IMG/VR virus record: IMGVR_UViG_3300028840_004580 | Location: 1-44,943 of that record | Length of the DNA: 44,943 bases | Source of the DNA: a virus | Strand: one strand, 5' to 3' | In this document: positions 13,592 to 44,943 of the stretch, in pieces | Layout: each line of letters begins with the position of its first letter | Numbering within the stretch: position 1 is the first letter of the stretch | Position numbers and translations under genes: made by a program | The notes under the pieces: generated by a model | What the model was told of the DNA's origin: nothing | Seen by the model: only the letters and a program-made list of their open reading frames with translations | The model's database searches: none

Positions 13592-13977
13592 TGGCAAAGC
13601 TCAATAAGAACCGTGTGTATGTTGTGACGCCTGTCCGTAGGGAGGGGGGCCTGAACTTGCCCTTCTTGGCCATTGGCCCCGTTCGGCAGTACTCTGAAGA
13701 AGAAGGGGAGGCGTGGGAGTTTGTCACCAACAGCTTCGAGGATTCCGGGTTCCGGGTGGTAGGGTCCGTGGAGGACGCTGGTGAGGGGCTACTGGTAGTC
13801 GAAGAGAAGCGGAGCGGGACCAGGTGGGAGTTCCGGCGCTTGACGCCGGAGACGTTCCGAGTGTTCGAGGGTGTGATGATTGGGTACAACGCCCTCTCGA
13901 TGGAGCTGCCTAGAGGTGTGGACCTCGAGAACCACTTCTTCGAGGAGTTCGCTCCATACGCAAGGGGCGGAGTATGA
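13591..13977 (+). CDS. Hypothetical protein
   Basis: 128 residues; the ATG overlaps the stop of the giant gene (TGATG), implying coupled translation. A predicted alpha/beta fold with 'NRVYVVTPVRREGG' at the start and many acidic residues. No family recognised. It lies between the giant protein and the RelA/SpoT-type gene and may be an accessory or immunity partner of either, which is only a positional guess. Confidence 0.6.
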   Translation: MAKLNKNRVYVVTPVRREGGLNLPFLAIGPVRQYSEEEGEAWEFVTNSFEDSGFRVVGSVEDAGEGLLVVEEKRSGTRWEFRRLTPETFRVFEGVMIGYNALSMELPRGVDLENHFFEEFAPYARGGV

Positions 13978-14831
13978 AGCGCTTGATCGAGGAAGGCCGG
14001 AAGATCCTGCAAGAGCTCACCTACCCTCCGTGGACGGTCCGACAACGTAAGCGCGGCCCGCACATGAAACTACCGGACGGGACGTGGGTTCGTGTGAAGG
14101 AGCGCAGGACCGGGGGCGGGGAGGCCCATTCTTCTGTCATCAAGGAGCTCGGGAAGATCGTCGATTCCGGGATTCTCGAGCCCGGGATGTCTTTGGCCGA
14201 TCATGTTGCCGAGGCGCAAGAGCTCCGGCAGAAGCACGCAGCGGGCTTCGACCAGGCGAAGAAGCGTCTCAGCGCGATGGCGCCGGAAGGAGCCCGGATC
14301 ACGGGGCGTGTGAAAACCATGGAGAGCATCCTGGGGAAGATCGTGCGCAACCCGGGCAAGTGGGAAGACTGGAAGTATCCCCGTCCGGGCATGATCACAG
14401 ATGCCACGGGCATCCGGATCGAGGTGGACGACCTCGAGCAGGTCTTCGAGACGGCGAAGAAGGTCCAGGAGAACTATGAGGTGGTCTTCGACGACGACTA
14501 CGTCAACAACCCGCGCGGTGACTATCGGAGTTACCACTTCACCGTGGTCGACGAAGACGGGATGACCAAGGAGCTCCAGATCCGGACGCCGGGGCAGCAC
14601 GACTTTGCAGAGTGGTCGCACGATGTCTACAAGCCGCAGACTCCCGAGCAGGAGGTTGCGCTCGAGCACGGGTCGGGAGAGCTGGACAAGTACTCTGCCG
14701 ACATGAGCGACTTCATCTTCAAGGCGGACAAGGGGGAAGACCCCGTGGAGCCGCCGCCTTGTCCTGATGTGGCTCGGAACTTTTTCGGCTGCATCAACCC
14801 CGAGAAGGTCCGACTAAGGAGACGGAAATGA
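13974..14831 (+). CDS. RelA/SpoT-domain nucleotidyl pyrophosphotransferase with N-terminal leader
   Basis: 285 residues. Residues about 110-220 carry the synthetase motifs of the RelA/SpoT superfamily in order: R112-x-K114 with S118 and K122, 'ITDATGIRIE' (D143), 'DDYVNNPRGDYRSYHF', and 'KELQIRT' followed by 'WSHDVYK' (H216). Family members transfer pyrophosphate from ATP to GDP/GTP ((p)ppGpp synthesis) or, in toxic small synthetases, to the tRNA 3' end. There is no hydrolase (HD) domain in the chain. The first 14 residues (MKRLIEEGRKILQE) match the leader seen on proteins in the 30-36 kb island, ending in L-Q-E, a prohead-protease-like site. I infer an enzyme packaged in the head and delivered into the host. 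Which substrate it uses cannot be told from sequence. Confidence 0.82.
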   Translation: MKRLIEEGRKILQELTYPPWTVRQRKRGPHMKLPDGTWVRVKERRTGGGEAHSSVIKELGKIVDSGILEPGMSLADHVAEAQELRQKHAAGFDQAKKRLSAMAPEGARITGRVKTMESILGKIVRNPGKWEDWKYPRPGMITDATGIRIEVDDLEQVFETAKKVQENYEVVFDDDYVNNPRGDYRSYHFTVVDEDGMTKELQIRTPGQHDFAEWSHDVYKPQTPEQEVALEHGSGELDKYSADMSDFIFKADKGEDPVEPPPCPDVARNFFGCINPEKVRLRRRK

Positions 14832-26264: not shown

Positions 26265-27914
26265 ATGGCGGGCGTCCAACAAACCAGCTTGCCGGTTTCG
26301 GAGGCAGGACAAATGGCGGACAAGGTGCTGACAGAGGACTCCGTTGCCATCAACGGCGACCTTCCCGTACTTCGCGAGTTTCTGGACGAGCTGGCCCCTC
26401 TGGAGATTCTGGAGGACAAGCGTACTGGTCGTGTTCGTGTTCGTGGAGAGTTCGGGCGGTATGACGAGGCGACAGAGAACAAGCGCCTTTACCCGCTGCC
26501 CCTCTGGGAGCGTGAGATCAAGCGTCTCGAGAGCAGCTTCGGTCAGCGGAAGGTGTTCGGAGAGCTCGATCACCCCTCCGATGGAAAGACCGCGCTCTCC
26601 CGCGTATCTCATATCATCACCAACTTGACCGTTGGCCAGGACGGGAAGATCTACGGTGAAGCCGAGATTCTTCCCACCAGCCGGGGCAAGGACCTCGCGG
26701 CTCTTCTCAGGAGCGGTTGCCGCGTGGGCGTCAGCTCCAGGGGCTACGGGACAACCAAGCCCAACCAGCGCGGGCAGGACGTGGTCCAGGAGGACTACCG
26801 GCTTGTCGCGTTCGATTTCGTTGCGGATCCTGCGGACCAGGATGCCTACCCCGAGCTCGTGAGCGAAGATGTCGATACCGGTTCCGGCAGGTTCCTCTTC
26901 GAGGGCGTGGAGCTCAAGGTGACGCCGCTGACCGAAGAGGTGCCGGATGTGCACGTCGAGGGCGTCGATGACGACACCCTCGAGATCGCGAAGGTCCAGG
27001 TCCGGGACGAGATGGAGGCGAAGCTCTCCGAGATGCTCTTGTCCCGCATGGGCGAAATTCGGGCGCAGGTCGAGGAGCAGGTCCGGGAGGAGTTTTCGGC
27101 GGACCCGGCGGAGACGCAGAAGGCCCTGGCGCTCGAGCAGATCTCCCAAATCTTGAGTCCGTTCATGCTGTCCGAGGAGTCCGTGGATGTCCTGGCTGCA
27201 AAGGACGCAGAGCTGGCGGACCTCCGGGCGCAGCTGGAAGAGCGGGATGCCCGGATCGAGGAGCTCCAGGAGGAGGTGGAAGAGATGATGGAGGCCGCCC
27301 AGGTGGCCGGCTATCTCTGCTACCTCGAGCGGGCTGTCTCTGGGCACCCACAGGCCAATCGCGTGAGGCGGCTAGTCGGGGATGTCACGGAGTACGCTTC
27401 CGTGGAAGAGTTCCAGGAGCGTGTGGACGCAGCGCTGGCTGAGCTGGGGGACCTCGCGTCTCTGCAGGAAGCGCGGCACGAGAAGGCGCAGGAAGAGAGG
27501 GCCGAGCTCATTGAGCGCAGTGGGAAGCTCGAGTTGGCTCTGGAGAAGGCTCTGGAGGCCCTGAAGGTCACAGGTCTTCGCCTGTACGCCGAGCAGCGTC
27601 TGCATACGAATCCGCACGCGCACAAGATCCGGTCCATCCTGGAGTCGGTCCAGTCGATCGACTCCAAGGAAGAGGTCGATGCTCTCATCGAGGAGAGTCG
27701 GCCGAAGAAGAGAGGAAGAGAGTCTGTGCGGCAGCTTGCTGCACGGCTGAGCGAAGAGTTCGGCGGTGGTCTTAGAGGCACGCCGCGCGACGAAGAGGAG
27801 CCGTGGCCGAAGCCGAGGGGCGGGCGTCAACTCGTCTCCGAGGATTCCGGGGGCTACAACGGATTATCATGTTCACTTGAGGATCTCAGGCCGCTGCTGC
27901 CCCCGGGGGCCTGA
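26265..27914 (+). CDS. Prohead maturation protease (S80/gp21-like) fused to scaffold
   Basis: 549 residues. The first 200 contain the S80 protease signature: 'FGELDHPSDGKT', 'SRVSHIIT' (H116), 'GEAEILPTSRGKDLAALL', 'VGVSSRGYG' (nucleophile S157 or S158) and 'FDFVADPADQDAY' (D184). In T4 this enzyme degrades the scaffold and trims capsid and internal proteins after (L/I)-x-E. Residues 230-480 are long acidic coiled coils ('LRAQLEERDARIEELQEEVE'), so protease and scaffold are one chain, unlike separate T4 gp21 and gp22. The C-terminus is disordered. It probably processes the leaders of cargo proteins described elsewhere in this window. Confidence 0.85.
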   Translation: MAGVQQTSLPVSEAGQMADKVLTEDSVAINGDLPVLREFLDELAPLEILEDKRTGRVRVRGEFGRYDEATENKRLYPLPLWEREIKRLESSFGQRKVFGELDHPSDGKTALSRVSHIITNLTVGQDGKIYGEAEILPTSRGKDLAALLRSGCRVGVSSRGYGTTKPNQRGQDVVQEDYRLVAFDFVADPADQDAYPELVSEDVDTGSGRFLFEGVELKVTPLTEEVPDVHVEGVDDDTLEIAKVQVRDEMEAKLSEMLLSRMGEIRAQVEEQVREEFSADPAETQKALALEQISQILSPFMLSEESVDVLAAKDAELADLRAQLEERDARIEELQEEVEEMMEAAQVAGYLCYLERAVSGHPQANRVRRLVGDVTEYASVEEFQERVDAALAELGDLASLQEARHEKAQEERAELIERSGKLELALEKALEALKVTGLRLYAEQRLHTNPHAHKIRSILESVQSIDSKEEVDALIEESRPKKRGRESVRQLAARLSEEFGGGLRGTPRDEEEPWPKPRGGRQLVSEDSGGYNGLSCSLEDLRPLLPPGA

Positions 27915-27946
27915 CCAGTTTGTTGTTCTCACCAAAGGAGGGCGAG

Positions 27947-29449
27947 GTGGAAGCTCGTCGAATGATCATCGAAGACAGCACGGGGACGATCGCCGACCAG
28001 CGACTGGTCAGTGTCCTGGTGGAGAAGTGGGACGACCTGATGGAGGGCATGCCCGGCCGCACGCCCTTCGATATGTATCGCAAGGGCTGCCTGGCGATGC
28101 TGTTCGAGAATCAGGCCCGTCACCTCCGTGCCATGTCGGAAGAGACCCGCGCCATCAACGTGGGCTACTTCACCAAGTTCATCTTCCCGGTGCTCACCCG
28201 GGTGTTCCCCAATCTCATCGCGAACGAGATCGTCTCTGTTCAGCCGATGACCGCACCGCAAGGCGCAGTCTTCTATCTGGACTACGTGTACGCGACCACC
28301 AAGGGTGCGGTCACGGCAGGGGAGATCTTCCCGCGCGATTTCAACCAGAACTACACGTCCGAGTATGTGGACGGCGAGGTTCTGGCAGTTGGTGACGGCA
28401 TCAACTACGTGTCTGGTCAGACGCCTCTGTCGGTCAGCCTGTCGTTCACCCCGGTCCACAAGCCCAGCACCGATCGCGGCATCCAGGTGATCATCCGTGA
28501 GATCAGTGCTGCGGACGGAAGCACCGTGCAGGAAGGCTTCTTCCTTGCGGACGGGACCGCCGACACCGGTGCCACCAGCAATCTCACTGCGGGTACGCTC
28601 AACTACTCGAACGGTGCGATTGCGGGAGTCTTCTTCGATGCTGCGCCGCTCAACGGCAACCAGATCAAGATGTACTACCGCTACGACGGTGAGCTGAACA
28701 CCCTCCTCCCGAGGATGAAGCTCGACGTCAAGAAGGCCGTCATCGAGGCCGAGAGCCGTCGCCTGAAGGCTCTGTGGTCCAGCGAGGCCGCTGAGGACCT
28801 CCGGGCGCTCCAGGGTATCGAGGCCGAGGCCGAGCTCGTTTCCGCCGCCGCCCAGGAGATGGCGCTCGAGATCGATCGTGAGATCATCACGGATCTCTTT
28901 CTGGCCAGCACCGGGACGACCGACGTCTTCGATCGCATCCCGCCCGCCGGGATCAGCGAGGTCGACCACCTGCGGAGCATCATCACGAGCTTCAGCCGGG
29001 TGTCCAACGGCATCCACAAAGCCACGCTGCGTGCGCCGGCCAACTGGATCGTCACCTCGCCCGAGATCAGCGCGCTCATCGAGCAGCTGACCACCCACGG
29101 CGACTTCCGGCCCATTTGGAGTTCGGGTCCGCAGTTCGGTGCGCCGCTCGACATGCCGCGTCCCATGACGCAGCACGGTCAGTTCGGCGTGTACAAGAAC
29201 GGCACGCTTATGAACAAGTGGGTCGTCTACATCGACCCCTTCTTCCAGAGCGACATGGCCCTGATCGGGCTGAAGGGCGCCAGCTACCTCGACAGTGGGT
29301 TCGTGTGGGCTCCCTACATTCCGCTGCAGGTAACTCCGACCTTCCTCGATCCGAACGACATGAGCTTCCGCAAGGGTCTTCGCACGCGATACGCGAAGAA
29401 ATTGCTCCGATCGGAATATTATGGGCAGCTGCGAGTGCAGAACCTGTAA
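27947..29449 (+). CDS. Major capsid protein, T4 gp23-like, with inserted beta domain
   Basis: 500 residues from GTG 27947, chosen because AAGGAGGG lies 5 nt upstream; an earlier TTG has none. HK97-fold myovirus features include 'MYRKGCLAMLFENQARHL' near the N-terminus and the C-terminal 'VVYIDPFFQSDMALIGLKG', 'DSGFVWAPYIPL', 'TRYAKKLL' and 'YYGQLRV'. A beta-rich insertion at about 136-250 ('YVDGEVLAVGDG' to 'MYYRYDGEL') has a stand-alone paralogue at 33226. L-x-E sites such as 'DDLME' (about 33) may mark the propeptide cleavage. The last 24 nt recur twice downstream. Followed by a strong terminator. Confidence 0.92.
   Translation: MEARRMIIEDSTGTIADQRLVSVLVEKWDDLMEGMPGRTPFDMYRKGCLAMLFENQARHLRAMSEETRAINVGYFTKFIFPVLTRVFPNLIANEIVSVQPMTAPQGAVFYLDYVYATTKGAVTAGEIFPRDFNQNYTSEYVDGEVLAVGDGINYVSGQTPLSVSLSFTPVHKPSTDRGIQVIIREISAADGSTVQEGFFLADGTADTGATSNLTAGTLNYSNGAIAGVFFDAAPLNGNQIKMYYRYDGELNTLLPRMKLDVKKAVIEAESRRLKALWSSEAAEDLRALQGIEAEAELVSAAAQEMALEIDREIITDLFLASTGTTDVFDRIPPAGISEVDHLRSIITSFSRVSNGIHKATLRAPANWIVTSPEISALIEQLTTHGDFRPIWSSGPQFGAPLDMPRPMTQHGQFGVYKNGTLMNKWVVYIDPFFQSDMALIGLKGASYLDSGFVWAPYIPLQVTPTFLDPNDMSFRKGLRTRYAKKLLRSEYYGQLRVQNL
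29426..29449. repeat. Capsid-gene 3' end, copy 1 (native)
   Basis: The last 24 nt of the capsid gene, encoding QLRVQNL plus TAA. The same 24 nt occur at 30717-30740, and 15 of them recur at 31782-31796 within a 19-nt match to copy 2. Confidence 0.9.
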
Positions 29450-29531: not shown

Positions 29532-30374
29532 ATGGCGGTGATCAACTGGGGCTTTTTCGAAGGGTGGTCGCCTGAGCTGGCGTGGTGGCTCGGGGTGCTC
29601 TACGGGGACGGGAACGTCTACGCGAAGCGCGGAACCTACCGTGTCAGCATGGTTGGGAACCGCGCCACAGCCGAGCGTTGGCTGGCGTTGTTTGCCCCGG
29701 AGAAGACGCCGAAGCGCATCAGGAAGGGCGTCAGGGCTGTTCAGGCCTATGCGGACTCGAAGCAGCTCGTAGAGCTTGTGGAAGAGCGCTTTGGGATCTG
29801 CGGGCCGAAGACGCATGACCTCCGGTGGCCCCTGGAGTTGCCGCGGGAGCTGGAGCCGCATTTCTTCCGTGGTCTCTGGGATGCCGATGGCCACGTGTCT
29901 CTGTCGAAGAGGGGGAAGGGGCAGGGCAACGACTACCCTCTGGCTATGTATTCGAGCGCGTGTCGCACGTTTCTCCAGACCATGCGTGTGCGGTTGATGC
30001 GCTGGACAGGGGTGTCTAGGGCGGCGATCGTGGAGCAGTGTAAGGGCCGCTCTTTTTGGTATTCCGTGAAGTGGACGGGTTCGAAGGCGATCCTCGTGCT
30101 CGACTATCTGTACCTCGAGGCGCCCGAGCATATCAGGAACGAGACGAAGTATCAGGTCTACCGGGAAGCCAGAGAGCACTACTTGGACGTTCAGATGGCC
30201 TTGTGCGCGTGCGGGCGGCCGGTCACGCGCGAGGACCAGTGTCAGGCCTGCTGGTGGAAGGGGCGGCGGAAGACGGGCAAGGGGACGCTCTGTGAAGAAT
30301 GTAACGAGAAGCCGGTGCTGGCGAAGGGCTTGTGCTCGGCGTGTTACACGCGGAAGCGCAGAGCCTGTGCTTGA
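29532..30374 (+). CDS. Free-standing LAGLIDADG homing endonuclease with C-terminal zinc fingers
   Basis: 280 residues. Two dodecapeptides, 'WWLGVLYGDGNVY' near the N-terminus and 'FFRGLWDADGHVSL' about 100 residues later, define a single-chain LAGLIDADG nuclease; the acidic residue of each motif is present. The last 60 residues carry three Cys-x2-Cys-like pairs (CACG, CQAC, CEEC and CSAC), a zinc-binding tail probably for DNA recognition. The ATG at 29532 must be close to the true start because motif 1 begins at residue 17; only a weak GGGGA site precedes it. Inserted directly after the capsid gene, a typical place for a homing gene that spreads by cutting the uninterrupted locus. Confidence 0.85.
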   Translation: MAVINWGFFEGWSPELAWWLGVLYGDGNVYAKRGTYRVSMVGNRATAERWLALFAPEKTPKRIRKGVRAVQAYADSKQLVELVEERFGICGPKTHDLRWPLELPRELEPHFFRGLWDADGHVSLSKRGKGQGNDYPLAMYSSACRTFLQTMRVRLMRWTGVSRAAIVEQCKGRSFWYSVKWTGSKAILVLDYLYLEAPEHIRNETKYQVYREAREHYLDVQMALCACGRPVTREDQCQACWWKGRRKTGKGTLCEECNEKPVLAKGLCSACYTRKRRACA

Positions 30375-30423: not shown

Positions 30424-30711
30424 ATGAGTAAGCTATCAGAAGCGGTGGAACGAGGGCGGGAGCTGTTGAGTGAGGTGAAGATGCCTCCGAAGGGGGTACT
30501 GAATGCGGCAGTCAAGGCGATGCGTTTGTATCTAGGGTCTGTCGGTTATGCTTCGCCTCGTCAAGAGGAACGTTTCTATCAAAGGGCCACGAAGGCGGTT
30601 ACCAAGGTGGTGAAGGCCTCTGGTCTACCTCATTCGGTGGCATGGGAGCAGATTGAGGCGCAAGCGAGAAAGCAAGGCGTGTTGCGACCGCAACCGGGCA
30701 AGGATATGTGA
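30424..30711 (+). CDS. Leader-tagged small protein 1
   Basis: 95 residues, own promoter, AGGAGGGCGG ribosome site. Residues 1-17 (MSKLSEAVERGRELLSE) are the shared leader, ending in L-S-E before V-K. The remaining 78 residues are basic and helical ('PPKGVLNAAVKAMRLYLGS', 'KAVTKVVKASGLPHSVAWEQ') with no recognised family. Predicted to be loaded in the capsid, trimmed, and delivered, by analogy with T4 internal proteins. The mature part has no cysteine or signal peptide. Confidence 0.65.
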   Translation: MSKLSEAVERGRELLSEVKMPPKGVLNAAVKAMRLYLGSVGYASPRQEERFYQRATKAVTKVVKASGLPHSVAWEQIEAQARKQGVLRPQPGKDM

Positions 30712-30716
30712 CCGGA

Positions 30717-30740
30717 CAGCTGCGAGTGCAGAACCTGTAA
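30717..30740. repeat. Capsid-gene 3' end, copy 2
   Basis: Identical over 24 nt to the end of the capsid gene, but placed 5 nt after an unrelated stop codon and out of any gene. It continues as TAAGCGC, shared with copy 3 but not with copy 1. Confidence 0.9.
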
Positions 30741-30858: not shown

Positions 30859-31191
30859 ATGAGCAGATTGTCGGAAGCAGTGGACCGGGGTCGAGAGCTT
30901 TTCGACGAAGCGAAAGCTGGAGGGATCAAGTTGACTGTCATCCGGTCGAAACACGGTCCCACGGTCAAGGTCGGGATTGAGACGATCTACAGGAAGACTC
31001 GCGTGTGGGGGGAGACCCTTCCGATACACCTCGAGTTGGACAAAATTGATCTGGGGCTGGTGCGACAGGTTCTTCCCGATACCAAGCTTCACCGAGAGAC
31101 TTCTCCGGGGGCGGGTTCTCGTCTTGGCGTTCCCATGAGCCTTCAGATGAAGATCGAGAAGGCTGTGCTCGCGAAGTTGAAAGCTCTGTAG
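30859..31191 (+). CDS. Leader-tagged small protein 2
   Basis: 110 residues. The leader MSRLSEAVDRGRELFDE ends with F-D-E before A-K. The mature part looks beta-rich first ('IKLTVIRSKHGPTVKVGIE'), then helical at the C-terminus ('LQMKIEKAVLAKLKAL'). Unrecognised. It has its own promoter and a weak terminator, so it is an independent cassette like its neighbours. Capsid delivery is inferred from the leader. Confidence 0.65.
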   Translation: MSRLSEAVDRGRELFDEAKAGGIKLTVIRSKHGPTVKVGIETIYRKTRVWGETLPIHLELDKIDLGLVRQVLPDTKLHRETSPGAGSRLGVPMSLQMKIEKAVLAKLKAL

Positions 31192-31654: not shown

Positions 31655-31756
31655 ATGAGTTCGTTGTCAGAGACCATCCAGAAGGGCCGGGAGTTCTTGG
31701 GCGAGGCAAAGGCTGCAGCACCTTTGCCGGACGCTGGTCGCGCTGGGCTACTATGA
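31655..31756 (+). pseudogene. Truncated leader-tagged gene (remnant)
   Basis: The reading frame has an intact ribosome site and leader (MSSLSETIQKGREFLGE, then A-K), but after residue 20 it runs into an out-of-frame copy of another gene (31713-31785 repeats 32922-32994) and stops at residue 33. The original cargo is missing. It shows that the leader module is a separable unit that has been joined to foreign sequence. It may still make a 33-residue peptide. Confidence 0.7.
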
Positions 31757-31785
31757 CGATACCACAGGGAGAGCTCTTCGCGTGC
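31713..31785. repeat. 73-bp duplicate of part of gene 32847
   Basis: Matches 32922-32994 with a single T/C difference. It joins the leader remnant on the left to a capsid-gene 3' end on the right. Confidence 0.9.
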
Positions 31786-31800
31786 AGAACCTGTAAGCGC
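31782..31800. repeat. Capsid-gene 3' end, copy 3
   Basis: 19 nt (GTGCAGAACCTGTAAGCGC) identical to 30726-30744; the first 15 also end the capsid gene. Followed directly by a terminator, so this may be the ancestral end of the capsid operon. Confidence 0.85.
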
Positions 31801-31827: not shown

Positions 31828-31850
31828 CGTTCCGGCCGATATGAGCCGTA

Positions 31851-31877
31851 AGGCGCCCCTCTCCGGGGCGCCTTTTT
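31851..31877 (+). terminator. Strong terminator
   Basis: Perfect 9-bp stem AGGCGCCCC/GGGGCGCCT, 5-nt loop, five T. Second of two in tandem. Confidence 0.85.
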
Positions 31878-31961: not shown

Positions 31962-31990
31962 TTGACAATCCTGCGGCGACCTATTAGCCT
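31962..31990 (+). promoter_or_regulatory. Promoter of the 32044 operon
   Basis: TTGACA, 17-nt spacer, TAGCCT. The gap 31757-32043 otherwise holds the repeats and two terminators listed here. Confidence 0.6.
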
Positions 31991-32020: not shown

Positions 32021-32046
32021 GTTCTATCCGAGGAGACGAACGGATG
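32021..32046 (+). repeat. Repeated translation-initiation leader, copy A
   Basis: GTTCTATCCGAGGAGACGA plus ACGG and the ATG at 32044. The same leader, one base shorter, is at 32342-32366 before the lipoprotein gene. Confidence 0.8.
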
Positions 32047-32367
32047 GAGAAGGGGATCCGGGTCAGGGTGTCTTGCAAGGGGGATGGCTTCGTGTTCGCG
32101 GTTGATCCCAGGGACCAAGCGGCTCTTGGCGAGGGGGCCTGTAAGAAGGCTTTCCTCGGGTACTCCAAGGGAGTCGGTATGGAGTTTCTCGAGAGTAATG
32201 AGCGCGTACTTATTCCCATCGCACATCTCATGATGGGCTTCGAGAACGGTAGGTTTCTCCCGCTGGACGGTGTGGTGTTTATTCGTGCGGACAACGGTGA
32301 AGCGATTGTCCGCTTCCAAGGCGTGCGTCCACGGTCGCGCGGTTCTATCCGAGGAGACGACGGATGA
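32044..32367 (+). CDS. Hypothetical protein
   Basis: 107 residues, ATG after GAGGAGACGAACGG. Beta-rich ('IRVRVSCKGDGFVFAVDP', 'FLPLDGVVFIRADNG'). Its 3' end contains the duplicated initiation leader of the following gene, so the last 9 residues (RSRGSIRGDDG region) are encoded by a ribosome-binding region. No family recognised. Confidence 0.6.
   Translation: MEKGIRVRVSCKGDGFVFAVDPRDQAALGEGACKKAFLGYSKGVGMEFLESNERVLIPIAHLMMGFENGRFLPLDGVVFIRADNGEAIVRFQGVRPRSRGSIRGDDG
32342..32366 (+). repeat. Repeated translation-initiation leader, copy B
   Basis: Copy of 32021-32046 lacking one A, directly before ATG 32364. Suggests a small duplication that supplied a ready-made ribosome site. Confidence 0.8.
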
Positions 32368-32648
32368 AGTATGCAGTGTTGTTGGCCGTTCTCGTGTGCT
32401 TTTCTCTGGCCTTTGCGGGGTGCAGGGACCACAAAGCGCAGGCGGAGAAGCAGGCGCACACCTTCGCCCAGCAGCTGGGCCTGGAGGTCGAGAGGATCGT
32501 CTGTGTCAACCAGGACTCGGACAGGGATGGCTACGTGTCCTGCACCTTCAAGCTGAAGGACGGGGAGACGACGGCGTTCGAGTGTGTCGGGGACGTGTGG
32601 ATGTCCAGCAAGGAGGGCTGCAGGGAGCCGAAGGCCAGTGTCGAGTGA
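32364..32648 (+). CDS. Small lipoprotein
   Basis: 94 residues. Signal peptide of the lipoprotein type: MKYAVLL, hydrophobic core, lipobox-like FAGC with C20 as the lipidation site (Phe at -3 is unusual). The mature part is about 75 residues, charged, with three further cysteines that could form disulfides in the periplasm ('VCVNQDSDRDGYVSC', 'FECVGDVW', 'EGC'). Phage lipoproteins such as T5 Llp block receptors against superinfection; a similar role here is only a hypothesis. Translationally coupled to its neighbours. Confidence 0.7.
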   Translation: MKYAVLLAVLVCFSLAFAGCRDHKAQAEKQAHTFAQQLGLEVERIVCVNQDSDRDGYVSCTFKLKDGETTAFECVGDVWMSSKEGCREPKASVE

Positions 32649-32844
32649 GTGGGACAAGATCGGTCCGAAGGTCGTAGTGCTCCCCGTTTCATGCCCGCAC
32701 TGCTTCCATGTGAATAACGTCGCGTGCATGGAGTGGTTCGGGAAGATCAGGCCGGGGACGAGCTCCGGGGACTGCTATATGTGCGGGCGGTCTGTGAAGA
32801 TCACTGTGCAGGAGGACCGGACGGTTCTGGCTGAGAAGGGGTGA
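32638..32844 (+). CDS. Small zinc-ribbon protein
   Basis: 68 residues from GTG 32638, overlapping the lipoprotein end. CPHC and CYMC about 29 residues apart form a zinc ribbon; the rest is short beta strands. The start is not certain because the Shine-Dalgarno is weak. Function unknown; one of several mini zinc proteins in this phage. Confidence 0.5.
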   Translation: MSSEWDKIGPKVVVLPVSCPHCFHVNNVACMEWFGKIRPGTSSGDCYMCGRSVKITVQEDRTVLAEKG

Positions 32845-32846
32845 GG

Positions 32847-33209
32847 ATGCCTGTCTACATCCGAGGAAAGGGCGACATTGTGTATGCGCTCAAGGAGGCG
32901 GATCTGGACAAGTCGGAGACTCTGCAGCACCTTTGCCGGACGCTGGTCGCGCTGGGCTACTACGACGATACCACAGGGAGAGCTCTTCGCGTGCGCGAGC
33001 ACCCGGGCATGGTCGACCTGTTGGGAAGGGCGGTGGATGACGTGGAGAGACAGCTCGAGGAAGCCATGAAGCTGATCGAGGTGCTTCGGCAGGCGCATCA
33101 TGGGAGCCCAAAGGACAAGCTGGCTGCCAGGAAGCAGATCGGTGAGGCGGAACGGCTCTTCGAGCGTTTCGCCGATCAGAAGCTGAAGGAATGGCCCCGG
33201 AGGTACTGA
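32847..33209 (+). CDS. Hypothetical coiled-coil protein
   Basis: 120 residues from ATG 32847 (GTG 32841 is an alternative). N-terminal alpha/beta part, then a long helix ('MVDLLGRAVDDVERQLEEA', 'KQIGEAERLFERFADQKLK'). A 73-bp piece of this gene (32922-32994) is duplicated at 31713. Not recognised. Confidence 0.6.
   Translation: MPVYIRGKGDIVYALKEADLDKSETLQHLCRTLVALGYYDDTTGRALRVREHPGMVDLLGRAVDDVERQLEEAMKLIEVLRQAHHGSPKDKLAARKQIGEAERLFERFADQKLKEWPRRY
32922..32994. repeat. Source of the 73-bp duplication
   Basis: In-frame part of gene 32847 (from LQHLCRTLVALGYYDD onward); near-identical copy, out of frame, at 31713-31785. Confidence 0.9.
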
Positions 33210-33225
33210 TAGGAGGGTCTTTGTG

Positions 33226-33699
33226 ATGTCGTCGTTCCACATCCGGTCCTACGCGGACCAGTACATCGATGGAGAGATCCTCGGGGTCGGGGACGGGAAG
33301 AAGTTCGGGCCCGAGGGTGCCACCCTGGAAGAGACCGTGGCCTGGGTTCCGGTGATGTCGGCCTTCGAGGGGTATCCAGGCCTCCTGGTGCAGGAGCGGA
33401 GCTCTGCGGACGGTAGCGTGGTCCAGGAGGGGCGTTTTTCGACGGTGGGAGAGGTAGACCTCGAGTCAGACCTCCTGAGCGGCGCCTTCAATTACAGATC
33501 TGGAAGGCTGTCAGGCGTTCGGTTCAAGGCGGCGCCCGGACCGGGGAACCCCGTGAAGGCGTACTATCTGTTCGATTGCAGCACACCGCTCAAGGCGGAC
33601 GGAACGGTGGACTGGGACTACCTGCTCGAACGAGGGAGGATACGAGATGCCCAGGAGCAAGGACGGACACATAACGAAGCTGAAGGGGATCCGGAGTAG
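33226..33699 (+). CDS. Stand-alone paralogue of the capsid-protein insertion domain
   Basis: 157 residues from ATG 33226 (GTG 33223 possible), AGGAGG upstream. It aligns along most of its length with the capsid protein insertion at about 136-250. Matching pairs are 'YIDGEILGVGDG' / 'YVDGEVLAVGDG', 'SSADGSVVQEG' / 'SAADGSTVQEG', 'GAFNYRSGRLSGVRFKAAP' / 'GTLNYSNGAIAGVFFDAAP', and 'KAYYLFD' / 'KMYYRYD'. It lacks the HK97 core, so it cannot form a shell alone. It may be a decoration or spike protein that evolved by copying the surface domain, or act during head assembly. The C-terminal 50 residues are unrelated and polar, and overlap the next gene. Confidence 0.75.
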   Translation: MSSFHIRSYADQYIDGEILGVGDGKKFGPEGATLEETVAWVPVMSAFEGYPGLLVQERSSADGSVVQEGRFSTVGEVDLESDLLSGAFNYRSGRLSGVRFKAAPGPGNPVKAYYLFDCSTPLKADGTVDWDYLLERGRIRDAQEQGRTHNEAEGDPE

Positions 33700-33802
33700 C
33701 GGGATCTCGTGGGGGATTTTTCTCCTGCTGCTGCTGATGGGTCTTGCGCAGCTTGTTGAGGGGGTGTCCTGGCTGGACTGGTTGTCGGGTCTTCCCTTGT
33801 GA
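33647..33802 (+). CDS. Small single-pass membrane protein
   Basis: 51 residues with an excellent ribosome site (CGAGGGAGGA, 6 nt before ATG). A basic N-terminus (PRSKDGHITKLKGIR) precedes one hydrophobic segment ('GISWGIFLLLLLMGLAQLV') and a short tail, giving a likely N-in orientation. It overlaps the end of the capsid-domain paralogue in another frame. Function unknown; holin-like or host-membrane targeting are both possible, and no lysis genes lie nearby to decide. Confidence 0.55.
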   Translation: MPRSKDGHITKLKGIRSSGISWGIFLLLLLMGLAQLVEGVSWLDWLSGLPL

Positions 33803-33815
33803 GACCCCGGGCTGG

Positions 33816-33848
33816 TATGCTCGGGGACGTCGTTTTTTGGAGGGTGTC
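33816..33848 (+). promoter_or_regulatory. Duplicated upstream element of leader genes, copy B
   Basis: TATGCTCGG, then a CGTCGTTTTTTGGAGG stretch before ATG 33849. Near-copy of 31619-31654, so promoter, ribosome site and leader were duplicated together. Confidence 0.45.
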
Positions 33849-34205
33849 ATGAGCCAGTTGTCTGAAGTAATCGAAAAGGGTCGGGGGCTCTTGGGTGAGG
33901 CGAAGCCGAAGGCTCTCAGTCGGGCGAAGAAGCTGAAGCTGACCAAGGCCATGGTTGCCAGGTTGCAGTTCACCATCGGGGGGAAGTTCCGGGTGGATGC
34001 TGCGACCACGAGGCGCGAGCTGAACATGGTCCGCAAGCTCGAGAAGAGGGGTTTCGTGAAGGCTGTCGGGAAGCGCCGGCAGGGGCTGTCGACGTCGGCG
34101 GGGGCTGATGCAACAGGTCGGTGGAAGAGTTCACCAACCTGGGACGAGCAGTACGAGTTGACCGACAAGGCTCACAAGGCGCTGGCGGATCTGGAGAAGT
34201 CATGA
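33849..34205 (+). CDS. Leader-tagged winged-helix-like protein
   Basis: 118 residues. The leader MSQLSEVIEKGRGLLGE ends in L-G-E before A-K. The rest looks like a winged helix-turn-helix: a basic helix run 'SRAKKLKLTKAMVARLQF', 'TTRRELNMVRKLEKRGFV' as recognition-helix region, and the ending 'YELTDKAHKALADLEK' seen in many small wHTH proteins. It may be a DNA-binding protein delivered with the genome. ATG 33849 is chosen for the leader and the TTGGAGGG site; an earlier ATG (33744) lies in the preceding gene. ATGA overlap with the next gene. Confidence 0.65.
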   Translation: MSQLSEVIEKGRGLLGEAKPKALSRAKKLKLTKAMVARLQFTIGGKFRVDAATTRRELNMVRKLEKRGFVKAVGKRRQGLSTSAGADATGRWKSSPTWDEQYELTDKAHKALADLEKS

Positions 34206-35143
34206 GCATCTCGGAGACCATTGAGCGGGGACGGGAGCTCCTGGACGAAGCGCGTCCGATCGCGTTGCCTCCCCAAGTGGTCGAGGCTCTGGTGAAGCGG
34301 CTTATGAAGCAGTTCGAGCCCTCTTTGCGTTCCCTCGCACGGACGTCTCCCCTTGCACCCCTAGGGAATAAGGTCTGGGGGACCGAGACCATCTCTGTTT
34401 CGGACGTGAGGGGGAAGAAGCGGGAAATACCCGTGTCGATCGTGAGCGTCCAGCAGAGGGGTGTGAGGGGCCTTTTCCTTGGTGCGGTCTACATGCCCCG
34501 GGACCGGATCATACAGGTGCAAATGAACGGCAACCTTGGCGCGGGTGAGATCGTGCCGCTCCTGAAGGGTACTCAGATGTCGAGCGTTCAGGGCGCGATG
34601 AAGTACGCTCTGATGCACGAGATCACCCACGCGAAGGACGTTCTTCGGAAAAAGCGGCTTCAGCAGACCATTGCGGCGATCCTACAGCGGGAGGATCCGT
34701 TGCACCCGTTCTCGGATCGCGCGGTGTCGAAGCTCCTGAAGATGACCGGCTTCGAGGTGTCTCACCGACTGGTTGCCCGGAAGCGGAAAGAGCTCGGCGT
34801 CGGGCACTCGGTACAGCGCTTCAAGGATCGGTTGTCGCAGGCCGGTGTGTTGCCGCCTCCGTCGAAGGAGCAGCGGAAGCAGGACGCCAAGGCAGCTCGG
34901 AAGCGCTATCTGAACCAGCCCGAAGAGGTGAAGGCCTTCATGCAGGAGATCGCGAGCCAGGTGCGGGACCTGGTACCGGCGCACCGGTCGAAGCTCGTGG
35001 CCTGGACACCGAGCCGGGCCGTGACGTTTCTCCTGCGACAGTCGCACACCTGGAACGAGATCCAGGGGCAGCTCACGACCAAGAGCCGGAAGACCATCAA
35101 GAAGGGCGTCGTGACTGTGCTCCAGGACATGGGCGTGATCTAG
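34202..35143 (+). CDS. Leader-tagged HExxH metalloprotease-like protein A
   Basis: 313 residues. The leader is MSISETIERGRELLDE, ending L-D-E before A-R. A zinc-protease motif 'MHEITHAKD' (H139, E140, H143, and D146 as possible third ligand) lies on a helix after a beta-rich segment. The C-terminal half is basic and helical. It is clearly paralogous to the minus-strand gene 35140-35889: both have '(E/K)ARPI-LP' after the leader, HExxHxxD, 'YLNQ/YVNQ', and 'FLLRQSHTWNEI/FLLKQSDTWKAI'. If active, it would cleave host or phage proteins after injection or inside the head. Metallopeptidase domains are known in phage polyvalent proteins. Substrate unknown. Confidence 0.75.
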   Translation: MSISETIERGRELLDEARPIALPPQVVEALVKRLMKQFEPSLRSLARTSPLAPLGNKVWGTETISVSDVRGKKREIPVSIVSVQQRGVRGLFLGAVYMPRDRIIQVQMNGNLGAGEIVPLLKGTQMSSVQGAMKYALMHEITHAKDVLRKKRLQQTIAAILQREDPLHPFSDRAVSKLLKMTGFEVSHRLVARKRKELGVGHSVQRFKDRLSQAGVLPPPSKEQRKQDAKAARKRYLNQPEEVKAFMQEIASQVRDLVPAHRSKLVAWTPSRAVTFLLRQSHTWNEIQGQLTTKSRKTIKKGVVTVLQDMGVI

Positions 35144-35889
35144 GACAGCGCTGCGTAGACCGCTTTCAGGATGCGCCGTTTGTTGCGGGAGTTGAGATAC
35201 TTCCCGATGGCCTTCCAGGTGTCGGACTGCTTCAGTAGGAAGCGGACCCGCTGCTGGGGGGACTTCTTCGTCAGAATCCGGGCGAACTTCTCGGCGGCCA
35301 CGAGGACCTGGGACACCACCTGTTGCATGTGGGCGTTCACTTCGATGCGCTGGTTGACGTAGCGCTTGAAGTCGCGGAGCTGGGCGGCGTTGCCTTCGTC
35401 GGAGGCTTCGTAGTCGTCGGAGAAGAAGCCCTTGTACGTGGAAGGGTCCCAGCGCAGGTTGTCGAGGGCGTGGGTGAGTTCGTGCTCGAGCAGGTCCCGG
35501 ATGGAGCCTTCGATACTGCGTCGGCCTTTTCCTCGGAGGAGCTGGAGAGCCAGTTGCCCGGGGATCTGCCCACGGATGTAGATGTCGATGTCGTTCGTGC
35601 GGACGTTGTAGTGGGCGTTGACGCCTAGGGAGTTGCCTGAAGAGTTCGTGGAGTGGATCATCACCTGGATTGCTTTTTTTGTTCCGAGCACATCGGTGAC
35701 GTCGAGATCTGCTACTGCCCAGATGCCGCTCCCGAGTGGCTCTCCTGGGGAGTCCTTCTCGTGCTCTGTGAAGGCCGCTTCCAGGTGGTCGACGAGCCGC
35801 TTCATGGTTTTGTTGATGGCTTTCTTCGGAAGCGGTATCGGGCGGGCTTCGAGTAGCTTCCGGCCTTTGTCGATCAGGTGCTGTAGCAT
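35140..35889 (-). CDS. Leader-tagged HExxH metalloprotease-like protein B
   Basis: 249 residues on the minus strand. The leader is shorter (MLQHLIDKGRKLLE, then A-R), still ending in L-L-E. Zinc motif 'EHELTHALD' (H136, E137, H140, D143). The N-terminal region, motif helix and C-terminal 70 residues align with gene 34202, but a basic stretch of about 60 residues is missing, so B is the shorter paralogue. Its stop codon overlaps that of gene 34202 in the opposite direction, so the pair is exactly tail to tail. Expressed from the minus-strand promoter at 36115 with the small gene 35897. Confidence 0.75.
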   Translation of the reverse strand: MLQHLIDKGRKLLEARPIPLPKKAINKTMKRLVDHLEAAFTEHEKDSPGEPLGSGIWAVADLDVTDVLGTKKAIQVMIHSTNSSGNSLGVNAHYNVRTNDIDIYIRGQIPGQLALQLLRGKGRRSIEGSIRDLLEHELTHALDNLRWDPSTYKGFFSDDYEASDEGNAAQLRDFKRYVNQRIEVNAHMQQVVSQVLVAAEKFARILTKKSPQQRVRFLLKQSDTWKAIGKYLNSRNKRRILKAVYAALS

Positions 35890-36143: not shown

Positions 36144-36144
36144 T

Positions 36145-36217
36145 GTCCCGATCGGGATTCGAACCCGAATTCGGCGCTGTTTAAAGGCGCTGTCTTTGCC
36201 TATTAGACTATCGGGAC
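36145..36217 (-). tRNA. tRNA with UAA anticodon (Leu-type, short variable loop)
   Basis: 73 nt, minus strand. Acceptor GTCCCGA/TCGGGAC, D-arm GTCT/AGAC, T-arm TCGGG-TTCGAAT-CCCGA are all paired. Anticodon loop TTTAAAC gives UAA (reads UUA, Leu). The variable loop is only 5 nt, unlike normal tRNA-Leu, and the last anticodon-stem pair is C-A. Encoded CCA is absent. Identity therefore uncertain. Confidence 0.65.
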
Positions 36218-36247
36218 CGGGGCCTCTGCCTTCTGGGCTACGGGGGC
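36218..36247 (-). pseudogene. 5' half of a broken tRNA
   Basis: Read on the minus strand: GCCCCCG, TA, then a D-arm (GCCC ... AGGC), ending directly at the next tRNA. Anticodon and T arms are missing, consistent with a deletion or recombination inside the tRNA cluster. Confidence 0.55.
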
Positions 36248-36250
36248 AAT

Positions 36251-36323
36251 GCCGGTGGTGGGAGTCGAACCCGCAACAACAGGGCCCTCGACCCTGCACC
36301 TCTTCCAGTTGGATCACACCGGC
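36251..36323 (-). tRNA. tRNA with GAG-type anticodon loop, copy 1
   Basis: 73 nt. Acceptor GCCGGTG/CACCGGC. Anticodon stem CAGGG/CCCTG with loop TCGAGGG, read as GAG (Leu), with C instead of U at position 33. Variable loop short (5 nt). T-arm GCGGG-TTCGACT-CCCAC has one C-A mismatch. Nearly identical from D-loop to T-arm to the tRNA at 36605. Confidence 0.6.
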
Positions 36324-36550
36324 TTTCGGAATTTCCAGGCGTGGACCATTTTGAGCTCTTCCTGGAGCTCGTCCACGAGGCGGGAGAACAAGGTCGGGTC
36401 TGCGACGATCCCGTCGATGAATTCCCTGGGCAGGTACCTGGTGGCCCCGGAGCCCGAGCACCAGAGCGCCAGTAGACCGTCGCCTACCTGGAGAGGGGGA
36501 TCATCCAGCCCCGGTGCGTCTTCTTCTTCTGTTCTTCGGATGAGGGTCAT
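36314..36550 (-). CDS. Small hypothetical protein inside the tRNA cluster
   Basis: 78 residues from ATG 36550 (GAGGTGGAAG just upstream; ATG 36562 would add four residues). Contains 'TLIRRTEEEDAPGLDDPPL' and an amphipathic C-terminal helix ('PTLFSRLVDELQEELKMV'). Its stop overlaps tRNA 36251-36323 by 10 nt. Not recognised. Confidence 0.55.
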   Translation of the reverse strand: MTLIRRTEEEDAPGLDDPPLQVGDGLLALWCSGSGATRYLPREFIDGIVADPTLFSRLVDELQEELKMVHAWKFRKPV

Positions 36551-36604
36551 CTTCCACCTCATGGGCTCAGGATAGCCGGGGGAGGGGTGAGGCGAAAGTC
36601 AAGT

Positions 36605-36677
36605 GCCGTCGGTGGGAGTCGAACCCGCAACATCAGGGCCCTCGACCCTGCGTCTCTTCCAGTTGGACTACGATGGC
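36605..36677 (-). tRNA. tRNA with GAG-type anticodon loop, copy 2
   Basis: 73 nt. Acceptor GCCATCG/CGACGGC with one A-C mismatch. Same anticodon arm (CAGGG-TCGAGGG-CCCTG), D-loop and T-arm as copy 1, so the two are duplicates that differ mainly in the acceptor stem. Confidence 0.6.
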
Positions 36678-36681
36678 TGGG

Positions 36682-36753
36682 CGCCTCGACGGGACTCGAA
36701 TCCGCACCTCCGGGACCACAACCCGGCGCTCTAACCAGTTGAGCTACGAGGCG
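36682..36753 (-). tRNA. tRNA-His (GUG)
   Basis: 72 nt. Acceptor CGCCTCG/CGAGGCG, D-arm GCTC/GAGC, anticodon stem CCGGG/CCCGG with loop TTGTGGT (GUG). The discriminator base is C, as expected for tRNA-His; the extra G at -1 is not encoded. Confidence 0.8.
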
Positions 36754-36755
36754 AG

Positions 36756-36839
36756 GGAAGGAGGAGGAATCGAACCCCTGGGACGCGGTGCCCACCCCGG
36801 CTTTCGAGACCGGTTACTGACCACTCAGTGGCTCCTTCC
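36756..36839 (-). tRNA. tRNA-Ser (CGA)
   Basis: 84 nt with the long variable arm of class II tRNAs. Acceptor GGAAGGA/TCCTTCC, anticodon loop CTCGAAA giving CGA (reads UCG), T-arm loop TTCGATT. Confidence 0.75.
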
Positions 36840-36876: not shown

Positions 36877-37386
36877 CTACTTGTACGTCCTTCGGTTTAC
36901 GATGTAGGAGACGGTTGATTTGGCTATTCCGAAGGCCTTTACCAGTTCTGCTAGGGTGGCGCCGTTGTCCCGCATTGATCGGAGCTCGGCTACTTGTGCT
37001 TCTGTCAAACGTCTGCGATGTGATGCAGCGTACTTTGCGATAGCTGCTCGGTCCTTTTCGGGTCTGTCGAGCATGTTCTCGCTGGCGGTTCCGAAGGCTA
37101 GGTTGTCTCTGGAGTTATTGAACGGGTTTCCGTCCAGATGGCGCACTTGGATGTCGGGCCGGAACACGATCTCTCCGAACCATTGAAACCCGGCGAAGCG
37201 ATGGACGGGTATGGATCCCTGACTGGGCTTGGCGACGTTGAACTTCGGGTAGGGGGTCCCTCCGGTTGTACGCACTTTCAGTATGCGACCGTTGAGCCCT
37301 ATGACTTTTCCGTCTTTTCGAATTCGGTAGCCCCTTCGGTGTGCGTCCTTGATGCGTTCTTCGGTGCTGGTTCGGCGTGTGGTCAT
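36877..37386 (-). CDS. HNH homing endonuclease with C-terminal helix-turn-helix
   Basis: 169 residues from ATG 37386 (AGGAG upstream; a longer frame to 37506 runs through tRNA sequence). The HNH core is 'IPVHRFAGFQWFG', then 'VRHLDGNPFNNSRDNLAFGTASEN'. The C-terminal 'LTEAQVAELRSM' and 'TLAELVKAFGIAKSTVSYI' form a DNA-binding HTH of the type attached to homing nucleases. Placed within the tRNA cluster, which such genes often invade. A weak promoter (TTGCGC, 17 nt, CATAGT) may lie just upstream at about 37400-37430. Confidence 0.82.
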   Translation of the reverse strand: MTTRRTSTEERIKDAHRRGYRIRKDGKVIGLNGRILKVRTTGGTPYPKFNVAKPSQGSIPVHRFAGFQWFGEIVFRPDIQVRHLDGNPFNNSRDNLAFGTASENMLDRPEKDRAAIAKYAASHRRRLTEAQVAELRSMRDNGATLAELVKAFGIAKSTVSYIVNRRTYK

Positions 37387-37460
37387 TGCAGTGCTCCTGC
37401 GCGAAGGTTCGAACTGTCTACTATGCTTGCATTCGAACCCACGCGCAAGGCCTGCGTTTG

Positions 37461-37545
37461 AGGGTTGAAGGAATTGAACCTCTCGTCGCCCACCCACCTG
37501 TTTCACAAGACAACGGGTTTACAGCCCGCCGGCGGGAACAACCCC
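37461..37545 (-). tRNA. tRNA-Tyr (GUA)-like, D-arm missing; possibly a pseudogene
   Basis: 85 nt on the minus strand. Acceptor GGGGTTG/CAACCCT, anticodon stem CGGG/CCCG with loop CTGTAAA (GUA, Tyr), a long variable arm (CGTTGTC/GGCGACG) and a T-loop TTCAATT are visible. Only 12 nt separate the acceptor from the anticodon loop where about 23 are expected, so the D-arm is essentially deleted. Confidence 0.45.
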
Positions 37546-43242: not shown

Positions 43243-44943
43243 ATGGCCGAGCTGCTCGCTCCTGGAGTCTTCATCGAGGAGATTCCCTCCCAGGTCCAAG
43301 TGGTCCAGGGGGTGTCGACTTCGAATCTCGGTGTCGTCGGGTTCACCACGAAAGGTCCTGTGAACGAAGCCACGCTTGTTACGAGCTTCGAGCAGTTCAC
43401 GCGCCTGTTCGGTGACTTGACGCAGAACAGTTACTTGCCGCTGGCGATGGCGGCGTACTTCGCAAATGGAGGGCGTAGAGCCTACGTTGTTCGTGTCGTG
43501 CCTGGCGACGCTGATATGTCGGAAGCCAAGCTCCAGTCGGCTCAGTACGACTTCGAGCTGGACACGGGCGATGGATCCCAGACGGTGTTCTCGGAGACTG
43601 CCCTGACCACCCAGCTGAAGGTGAACGGTGGCGACACGCCGATCGTGCCCTTCAGCATGTCCATCCGGTGGCGCGAGGCGGACACGCCTGTCGCTTCGAC
43701 GCAGTGCGTCGAGCGGGATGGAACCACTCTGCTTGTCGGAGATGGTGCCGAGCTCAGCTTCGAAGGTCGAGTGCCTCCTGGCATTCTCCCAACCATCGCG
43801 GCGGACTTTGACGGCATCGATGAGAAGCTCCTGGCGATCGTGCCGGACACTTCGGCGGCCGCGACTCAGCTCGACTGGCTCGTAGGTGCGGCTCCTACCA
43901 CGCTCGACTTCACGACGCTGGCTGCGGATGGTCGAACGATGACCGGGAGTACGGTGGCAGGTACGGTGGCCACTCTGGACTGTGTCACGGGCATCTTCAC
44001 GGTGACTTTCGATGTCACGGAGGTCCCTGATGCGGCGGCGATCGGCATTGCGTGCACCCCGGCGTCTGTGGACAAGGGCTGTGACGACTCGGCGACGGCT
44101 GGGACTCTGGCCGGTGATGTGTCCGCTGGCAACATCGACTACGAGACGGGGGCCTGGGACTTCACGGCTACCACGGCTCCGCATGATGGGTCCCCAATCT
44201 TGGTGGACTACATCATCGATGCCTGGGACATGAACCCTATCAGTGCTGGGACTTGGGGCGACGACATCCGGGTGACGGTCGAGGGTAACGTCGACAACTA
44301 CGATGCGGACACCGGGTTGTACTCGGCGTGGAACGTCAACGTCTGGCTCTACAACACGTCGCTGGGCGGCTACTCCGTGCAGGAGCAGTACGAGGAGGTC
44401 GATTTTTCGGATTCGACTTCTGGGAAGTACTTCCCGGACGTGCTCAACGACCTGTCCGATATCATCGCTGTGACGGAGCCTGGTGGAGATGAAGTTCCCG
44501 GCGCTCTGAACACGCGGCTGATGTCTCGTGTCCTCGCCGCTGGAGGCGACGGGACAGCGACCGGGCTACCCCTCATTCAGGAGGATCTCGGCGAGGTGCC
44601 AGTGCAGCCCCGCACTGTCACGATCTCCTACACTTCCGGTGGAGCTGCGAAGACCATCATCGATGATGGTTCCGGGAACCTGACCGGAGATGTCGACGCC
44701 GCTGGAACAAACACCATCGGTTATACCGATGGCGCGATCGATGTCACGCTGGACACGGCAGCCGACGCCAACACCCTGGTGACGGTGATGTACTACGCGG
44801 CGCCGGTCGAGACCGCCCACACGGCGGACTTCGGCGACCAGACGAAGTACACCTGGCCTGCCGGCGGTCCCGAGGCGCTGTGGGCACAGGGGGCGGATGG
44901 AACGTTCACGGATCCCAACGAATGGGGTCGTGATCAGTTCACC
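43243..44943 (+). CDS. Tail sheath protein (5' part, runs off the window)
   Basis: 567 codons are present without a stop. The N-terminus 'APGVFIEEIPSQVQVVQGVSTSNLGVVGFTTKGP' (in part), 'NEATLVTSFEQFTRLFG' and 'LAMAAYFANGGRRAYVVRVV' is diagnostic of contractile tail sheaths, so the phage is a myovirus. Two beta modules at about 287-326 and 476-523 ('AGNIDYETGAWDFTATTAP', 'TNTIGYTDGAIDVTLDTA') resemble the capsid insertion domain. Strong ribosome site GTAGGAGGATGATCA precedes ATG 43243. The 76-nt gap upstream holds a 6-bp inverted repeat (CTCGAC/GTCGAG) but no convincing promoter. Confidence 0.93.
   Translation, partial: MAELLAPGVFIEEIPSQVQVVQGVSTSNLGVVGFTTKGPVNEATLVTSFEQFTRLFGDLTQNSYLPLAMAAYFANGGRRAYVVRVVPGDADMSEAKLQSAQYDFELDTGDGSQTVFSETALTTQLKVNGGDTPIVPFSMSIRWREADTPVASTQCVERDGTTLLVGDGAELSFEGRVPPGILPTIAADFDGIDEKLLAIVPDTSAAATQLDWLVGAAPTTLDFTTLAADGRTMTGSTVAGTVATLDCVTGIFTVTFDVTEVPDAAAIGIACTPASVDKGCDDSATAGTLAGDVSAGNIDYETGAWDFTATTAPHDGSPILVDYIIDAWDMNPISAGTWGDDIRVTVEGNVDNYDADTGLYSAWNVNVWLYNTSLGGYSVQEQYEEVDFSDSTSGKYFPDVLNDLSDIIAVTEPGGDEVPGALNTRLMSRVLAAGGDGTATGLPLIQEDLGEVPVQPRTVTISYTSGGAAKTIIDDGSGNLTGDVDAAGTNTIGYTDGAIDVTLDTAADANTLVTVMYYAAPVETAHTADFGDQTKYTWPAGGPEALWAQGADGTFTDPNEWGRDQFT

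Follow-up and report, generated by a model that had tools for sequence, protein, structure and literature searches.

A free-standing paralogue of the capsid insertion domain in a distant relative of phage T4, a candidate accessory head protein

Why would a phage encode, in addition to its major capsid protein (MCP), a small separate protein that resembles the insertion domain (I-domain) of that MCP and nothing else in it? This question is raised by the gene at 33226-33699 (+) in IMG/VR virus record IMGVR_UViG_3300028840_004580, of which the whole stretch of 44,943 nucleotides was analysed and is here called the window. The MCP of the window (27920-29449, +) is of the T4 gp23 type, with matches to PF07068 Gp23 (E 3e-67) and PHROG 138 (E 9e-64). 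The genes around it, encoding portal, prohead protease and neck proteins, are all of T4 type, and the phage is a distant relative of T4; in database searches, the MCP came closest to a protein of an unannotated phage of 595 kb, with 35% identity. The prohead protease gene (26265-27914, +; PF03420, E 1e-13; PHROG 207, E 2e-45) is of the T4 gp21/S77 type and encodes a possible scaffold C-terminal part.

The free I-domain gene lies about 3.8 kb downstream of the MCP gene. It starts with an ATG at 33226, its stop codon ends at 33699, and it encodes 157 amino acids, or 158 if the alternative GTG at 33223 is used; an AGGAGG ribosome-binding site can be read in the sequence at 33211-33216 (+), and the GC content by codon position (0.66/0.45/0.76) is of the coding type for the window. 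In BLASTP, the product matched residues 143-256 of the MCP (28346-28687, +), its paralogous I-domain, with 46 of 115 positions identical (40%), 68 of 115 similar and an E value of 7e-22, and the MCP was its second-best place in the window. The original prediction had put the matching capsid segment at residues 136-250 or so, which overlaps this range but has other exact limits, and the blocks that it listed (VGDG, ADGSxVQEG, NYxxGxxxGVxFxAAP and KxYY) are all present in the alignment. The domain profile A1, which itself contained the free sequence, matched the protein with E 1e-41. The HK97 core, said beforehand to be lacking, was indeed not found in the open reading frame (ORF), which has no match to MCP residues 1-136 or 257-509. 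When the MCP was compared with the T4 gp23 chains in the PDB, residues 32-137 and 250-492 aligned and residues 138-249 did not, so the free gene matches the very segment that interrupts the core. PHROG and Pfam searches assigned the free protein to no family, including no known decoration family, and tblastn against 50,697 phage records gave no match. Based on this similarity, on the separate structure models, on the tree and on the retained constraint described below, the ORF is a separate gene that copies the insertion domain of the MCP, as originally proposed.

The fold of the free protein was predicted with AlphaFold2 from an alignment of 57 MCP domains. The model contains a seven-strand beta domain at residues 11-118 (33256-33579, +), with strands at 12-21, 34-37, 54-58, 65-71, 83-89, 94-100 and 109-116 and a pLDDT of mostly about 88-98, falling to 71 in the block 41-50. 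A C-terminal helix at residues 130-151 (33613-33678, +) was predicted with low confidence (pLDDT about 53-67), and this segment has no MCP counterpart in the alignment. AlphaFold2 run on the MCP alignment failed for the core and gave a mean pLDDT of 46 overall, with mostly 85-93 in the I-domain segment; being the only well-predicted part of the model, the MCP I-domain is suggested to fold by itself. The two models, made from different alignments, both have seven strands in the same order, and the separately modelled proteins therefore share one predicted fold instead of showing the different folds that would speak against a copied domain.

With VIA-align, the top two matches for both models were the P1 capsid protein (9ukm_A, residues 197-302) and a contractile-injection-system chain (9gtp_2G, residues 290-397), at Z 6.0-6.7 and rmsd 3.5-4.1, values that alone are weak and could reflect a common arrangement; they become meaningful because both models agree and the I-domain of P1 is known. 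Foldseek found no significant match in the PDB; among viral models it returned a 197-residue entry at E 3e-10, with a tail sheath as second match and an MCP also below E 0.001. A sequence search of solved structures with the domain profile found none. Within the window, a tail-sheath-type ORF at 43243-44943 (+) weakly resembles the second half of the free beta domain in two places, similarities which suggest that surface domains of capsids and sheaths may be related. The sheath matches and the injection-system chain would also agree with a rival reading, in which the free protein is a beta domain of the tail-sheath type that was put to use in adhesion at the cell surface, on the tail or elsewhere on the virion. 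The full-length similarity and the tree, however, indicate the MCP and not a sheath, and such a recruitment is considered quite unlikely.

The distribution of the free gene is narrow. The only other copy was found on contig IMGVR_UViG_3300017963_000465, which shares a stretch of 10,961 identical bases with the window and thus represents the same phage. An HMM search that took in every ORF of 50 or more amino acids in the neighbourhood of about 107 related MCPs detected no free copy, and none was found in 39 whole records of up to 595 kb. In IMG/VR, the protein and a domain profile of 17 rows, used as queries, recovered the same phage only, and a scan of 84,980 genomes recovered no further free copy; the scans of both collections work by short peptide patterns, which a strongly diverged copy could escape. 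The search for free copies in relatives, which the original prediction had called for, thus yielded none outside the phage of the window. One contig (L100), in which the MCP ORF ends soon after the I-domain, was considered as a second free domain and rejected, since its MCP is broken in two; the halves lie on opposite strands of one contig (2679-3482, +; 4449-5153, -), as would result from an inversion or an assembly chimera.

The cluster that holds the free gene sits inside an 8.6-kb island adjoining the MCP gene. In the closest relatives (L003-L005), whose MCPs are 87% identical in the alignment, a largely tRNA-like stretch of 1.5 kb separates the MCP gene from the next shared gene, as against 8.6 kb in the window. 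Five tRNA genes lie at 36144-36839 (-), namely Leu (taa), Leu (gag) twice, His (gtg) and Ser (cga), and the tRNA-like sequence of L003-L005 is at the same place. The island is flanked by endonuclease genes of the LAGLIDADG (29532-30374, +) and HNH (36877-37506, -) types. The 3' end of the MCP gene (29435-29449) is copied twice downstream, at 30726-30740 and 31782-31796, both copies being degenerate, and a 73-bp piece (32922-32994) of the gene at 32841-33209 is copied, at 31713-31785, into a truncated gene for one of the leader-bearing proteins described below. We read these copies as traces left by cassettes that inserted downstream of the MCP gene.

In an island so full of repeats and homing endonucleases, the free gene might itself be a functionless, decaying fragment of an MCP duplicate, left behind by the recombination that copied the MCP 3' end. 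Its origin and the degree of constraint on it bear directly on this point. A tree was built from 62 distinct domains and 122 columns; in it, the free copy groups with the I-domains of the window's own MCP and of L005 and L043 (UFBoot 96), on a branch of 1.05 compared with a median terminal branch of 0.13, a length that calls for caution on its exact attachment. Judged by its sequence, the free copy most likely derives from an MCP of its own clade and not from a distant phage; the long branch indicates that it diverged fast and that its surface is much changed. Of 27 positions at which 95% or more of the MCPs agree, 18 lie within the beta domain, where the free protein keeps 15, and 9 lie at the ends that join the core, where it keeps 4. 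When neutral drift to the same protein identity was simulated in 4000 runs, at least 19 of the 27 conserved residues were kept in 0.05% (P 0.0005), 10% of the runs were free of stop codons, and none combined both properties. Since no neutral run kept so many conserved residues in a stop-free frame, a domain that was released and then maintained is a likelier account of the gene than debris, and the simulation speaks against the absence of constraint that characterises a pseudogene. The gaps between the gene and the MCP domain are in whole codons only, and the nucleotide identity by codon position (0.52/0.57/0.31) is compatible with constraint but saturated. Against decay there are thus an open frame with a ribosome-binding site, whole-codon gaps, the retention of folded-core residues and a confident fold prediction, and we regard a decaying fragment as improbable.

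If the gene is maintained, the manner in which it is expressed may indicate its use. It is the fifth gene of a cluster at 32044-33802. Intrinsic-terminator-like hairpins lie upstream of the cluster (31850-31874, +; a 10-pair stem with 8 G-C pairs) and after it (33805-33826, +), and a sigma70-like promoter, TTGACA-17-TAGCCT, precedes it at 31962-31990 (+), all of these being pattern or consensus matches only. The window contains 14 such hairpins compared with 8.7 in shuffled sequences, and two matches to TTGACAN16-18TANNNT compared with 0.15 expected, a number that none of 100 shuffles reached. T4-type late promoters (TATAAATA) were not found in the window. The cluster begins with an ORF of 107 amino acids without a family match (32044-32367, +), followed with a 4-nt overlap by a gene of 94 amino acids (32364-32648, +) that is lipoprotein-like by its N-terminus (MKYAVLLAVLVCFSLAFAGC...). 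The gene directly upstream of the free gene (32841-33209, +; 122 amino acids) has no family match, and its sole relative was found in the same phage; a membrane-protein-like ORF of 51 amino acids (33647-33802, +) overlaps the end of the free gene. The remaining cluster genes gave no informative family or defence matches. With its promoter- and terminator-like signals and its absence from close relatives at this locus, the cluster looks moron-like, as far as can be judged from sequence.

Such a unit invites readings in which the free domain acts on assembly or defence. Of the functions offered in the original prediction, variation of the head surface received no support. Interference is conceivable in the form of a free I-domain that competes for the docking site within capsomers, either against co-infecting relatives or to tune the phage's own assembly. 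The I-domains of T4 make extensive contacts within the capsomer (PMC9958956), and a separate promoter-terminator unit with lipoprotein-like and membrane-like genes would resemble a moron acting on superinfecting phages; but a protein derived from the MCP of its own clade would strike the phage's own capsid unless its docking surface had changed, and this reading is judged unlikely. The free domain could also serve as a decoy that binds a host factor recognising the I-domain, such as a surface ligand or a defence protein that senses capsids, and thereby spares the capsid or titrates the sensor. A folded domain that was kept, a surface long diverged and a predicted unit of separate expression would suit a decoy, but PADLOC, run on seven island proteins, found no defence gene or sensor near the free gene. 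A decoy is the least probable of the readings considered. Taken more broadly, that a free docking domain in a moron-like unit controls or blocks capsid assembly, of relatives or of the phage itself, or shields the capsid from a defence that senses I-domains, is unlikely.

The neighbours of the cluster point to the head. A leader of approximately M-x(1,2)-LSExIxxGRxLLxE|A starts at 30424, 30859, 31655, 33849, 34202 and 35889 (the last on the minus strand) and had no match in 20 shuffled windows. It is borne by the proteins encoded at 30424-30711, 30859-31191, 31655-31756 and 33849-34205 (all +) and by two HExxH proteins; a similar leader is found outside the island at 13974-14831 (+), and likewise in L043. 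The seven proteins of the window have in common an N-terminal leader resembling MSxLSExIxRGRxLLxE|A, and their bodies past the leader are mostly unrelated. The LxE|A end of the leader corresponds to the cleavage consensus of the T4 gp21 protease, a relative of which is encoded upstream of the MCP gene as given above. An [LM]xE motif occurs near residue 75 in the alignment of the MCP group, in the part at which MCPs of T4 type are cleaved. The sister phage (L043/L115; MCP 74%) has the same kind of leader on the genes right behind its MCP gene, and no free domain there. One HExxH protein (HEITHAKD; 34202-35143, +) has a 66% relative behind the MCP of the sister phage (L115, 6007-6954), and the other (HELTHALD; 35140-35889, -) is similar to the same L115 gene. 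From their sequences, both resemble zinc metalloproteases and would be carried inside the head; the former also matches Sigma54_DBD (PF04552, E 5e-9), probably through a helix-turn-helix. The internal proteins of T4 bear capsid-targeting sequences (PMC3012670), and by analogy the leaders look like such sequences and are candidate tags for head cargo. The free domain does not have the leader borne by its neighbours, which fits a location outside the capsid rather than inside it.

Based on these observations, we tentatively favour, at a little less than an even chance, the reading that the free I-domain is an accessory head protein of the decoration type that cements or decorates capsomers. According to this proposal, a gp23-type MCP gene of the phage's own clade would have given rise to a second copy of its I-domain segment; selection would then have maintained this copy, detached from the capsid core, as an accessory protein with transcription of its own. 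The free beta domain would fold alone and bind to the shell of the capsid. Its docking place would be either the surface normally taken by the I-domain of the neighbouring subunit or the I-domain bumps, and it would there cement or decorate the capsomers. Its expression, capsid binding and benefit are what we infer. In T4, the gp23 I-domain lies on top of the adjacent subunit and strengthens the capsomer (PMC9958956), and the I-domain of the P1 capsid protrudes outward (PMC12810830), so a free copy would have an obvious binding place. By analogy, a domain that has its core intact and is no longer tied to the shell would lend itself to binding capsomers, and decoration proteins can contain Ig-like domains (PMC7602432). 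A role in the head is also supported by the neighbourhood, in which the MCP and prohead protease genes lie upstream and six LxE|A leaders surround the free gene. The sigma70-like promoter, the lipoprotein-like and membrane-like non-head proteins of the cluster, the missing leader, the long branch and the occurrence of the gene in one phage only speak against it.

Should the accessory-protein reading hold, the gene would be a stand-alone head-protein candidate traceable to the insertion domain of a neighbouring capsid gene in which the fused domain is still in place, and thus a concrete, testable case of the birth of a capsid accessory protein; the protein would also offer a natural soluble I-domain for probing the role of this domain in gp23-type capsids. 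Among known systems, the closest are the I-domains of the gp23/gp24-type MCPs of T4, P1, S6 and relatives, to which the free protein is linked by its sequence homology with the I-domain of the window's own MCP, by the same predicted fold and by the P1 I-domain among its top structural matches. Those domains sit inside an HK97 protein, whereas the free domain is a separate gene of 157 amino acids with its own ribosome-binding site and putative transcription unit, and its product has an extra C-terminal segment with a predicted helix. The T4 vertex protein gp24 is likewise a paralogue of the MCP, encoded by a second gene derived from the MCP gene, but gp24 retains the whole HK97 fold and the free gene the insertion domain only. 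Morons resemble the cluster in that it carries promoter- and terminator-like signals, lies between conserved head genes and is absent from relatives; it differs from them in that one of its members copies a domain of the nearby capsid gene. The Ig-like decoration proteins T4 Hoc, T5 pb10 and N4 gp17 share with the free protein the small beta domain or domains, the separate gene and a plausible site on the outer shell (PMC7602432), and the free gene is, as expected of a decoration protein, a separate small gene near the capsid gene. Unlike them, it is derived from an MCP and has no known capsid-binding domain or match to a decoration family. Decoration proteins have been suggested to spread horizontally among phages and hosts, and the mixing of Ig-like and I-type domains is known among phage virion proteins (PMC7602432). 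The free gene is therefore best called a free-standing I-domain paralogue, a variant of this known domain mixing.
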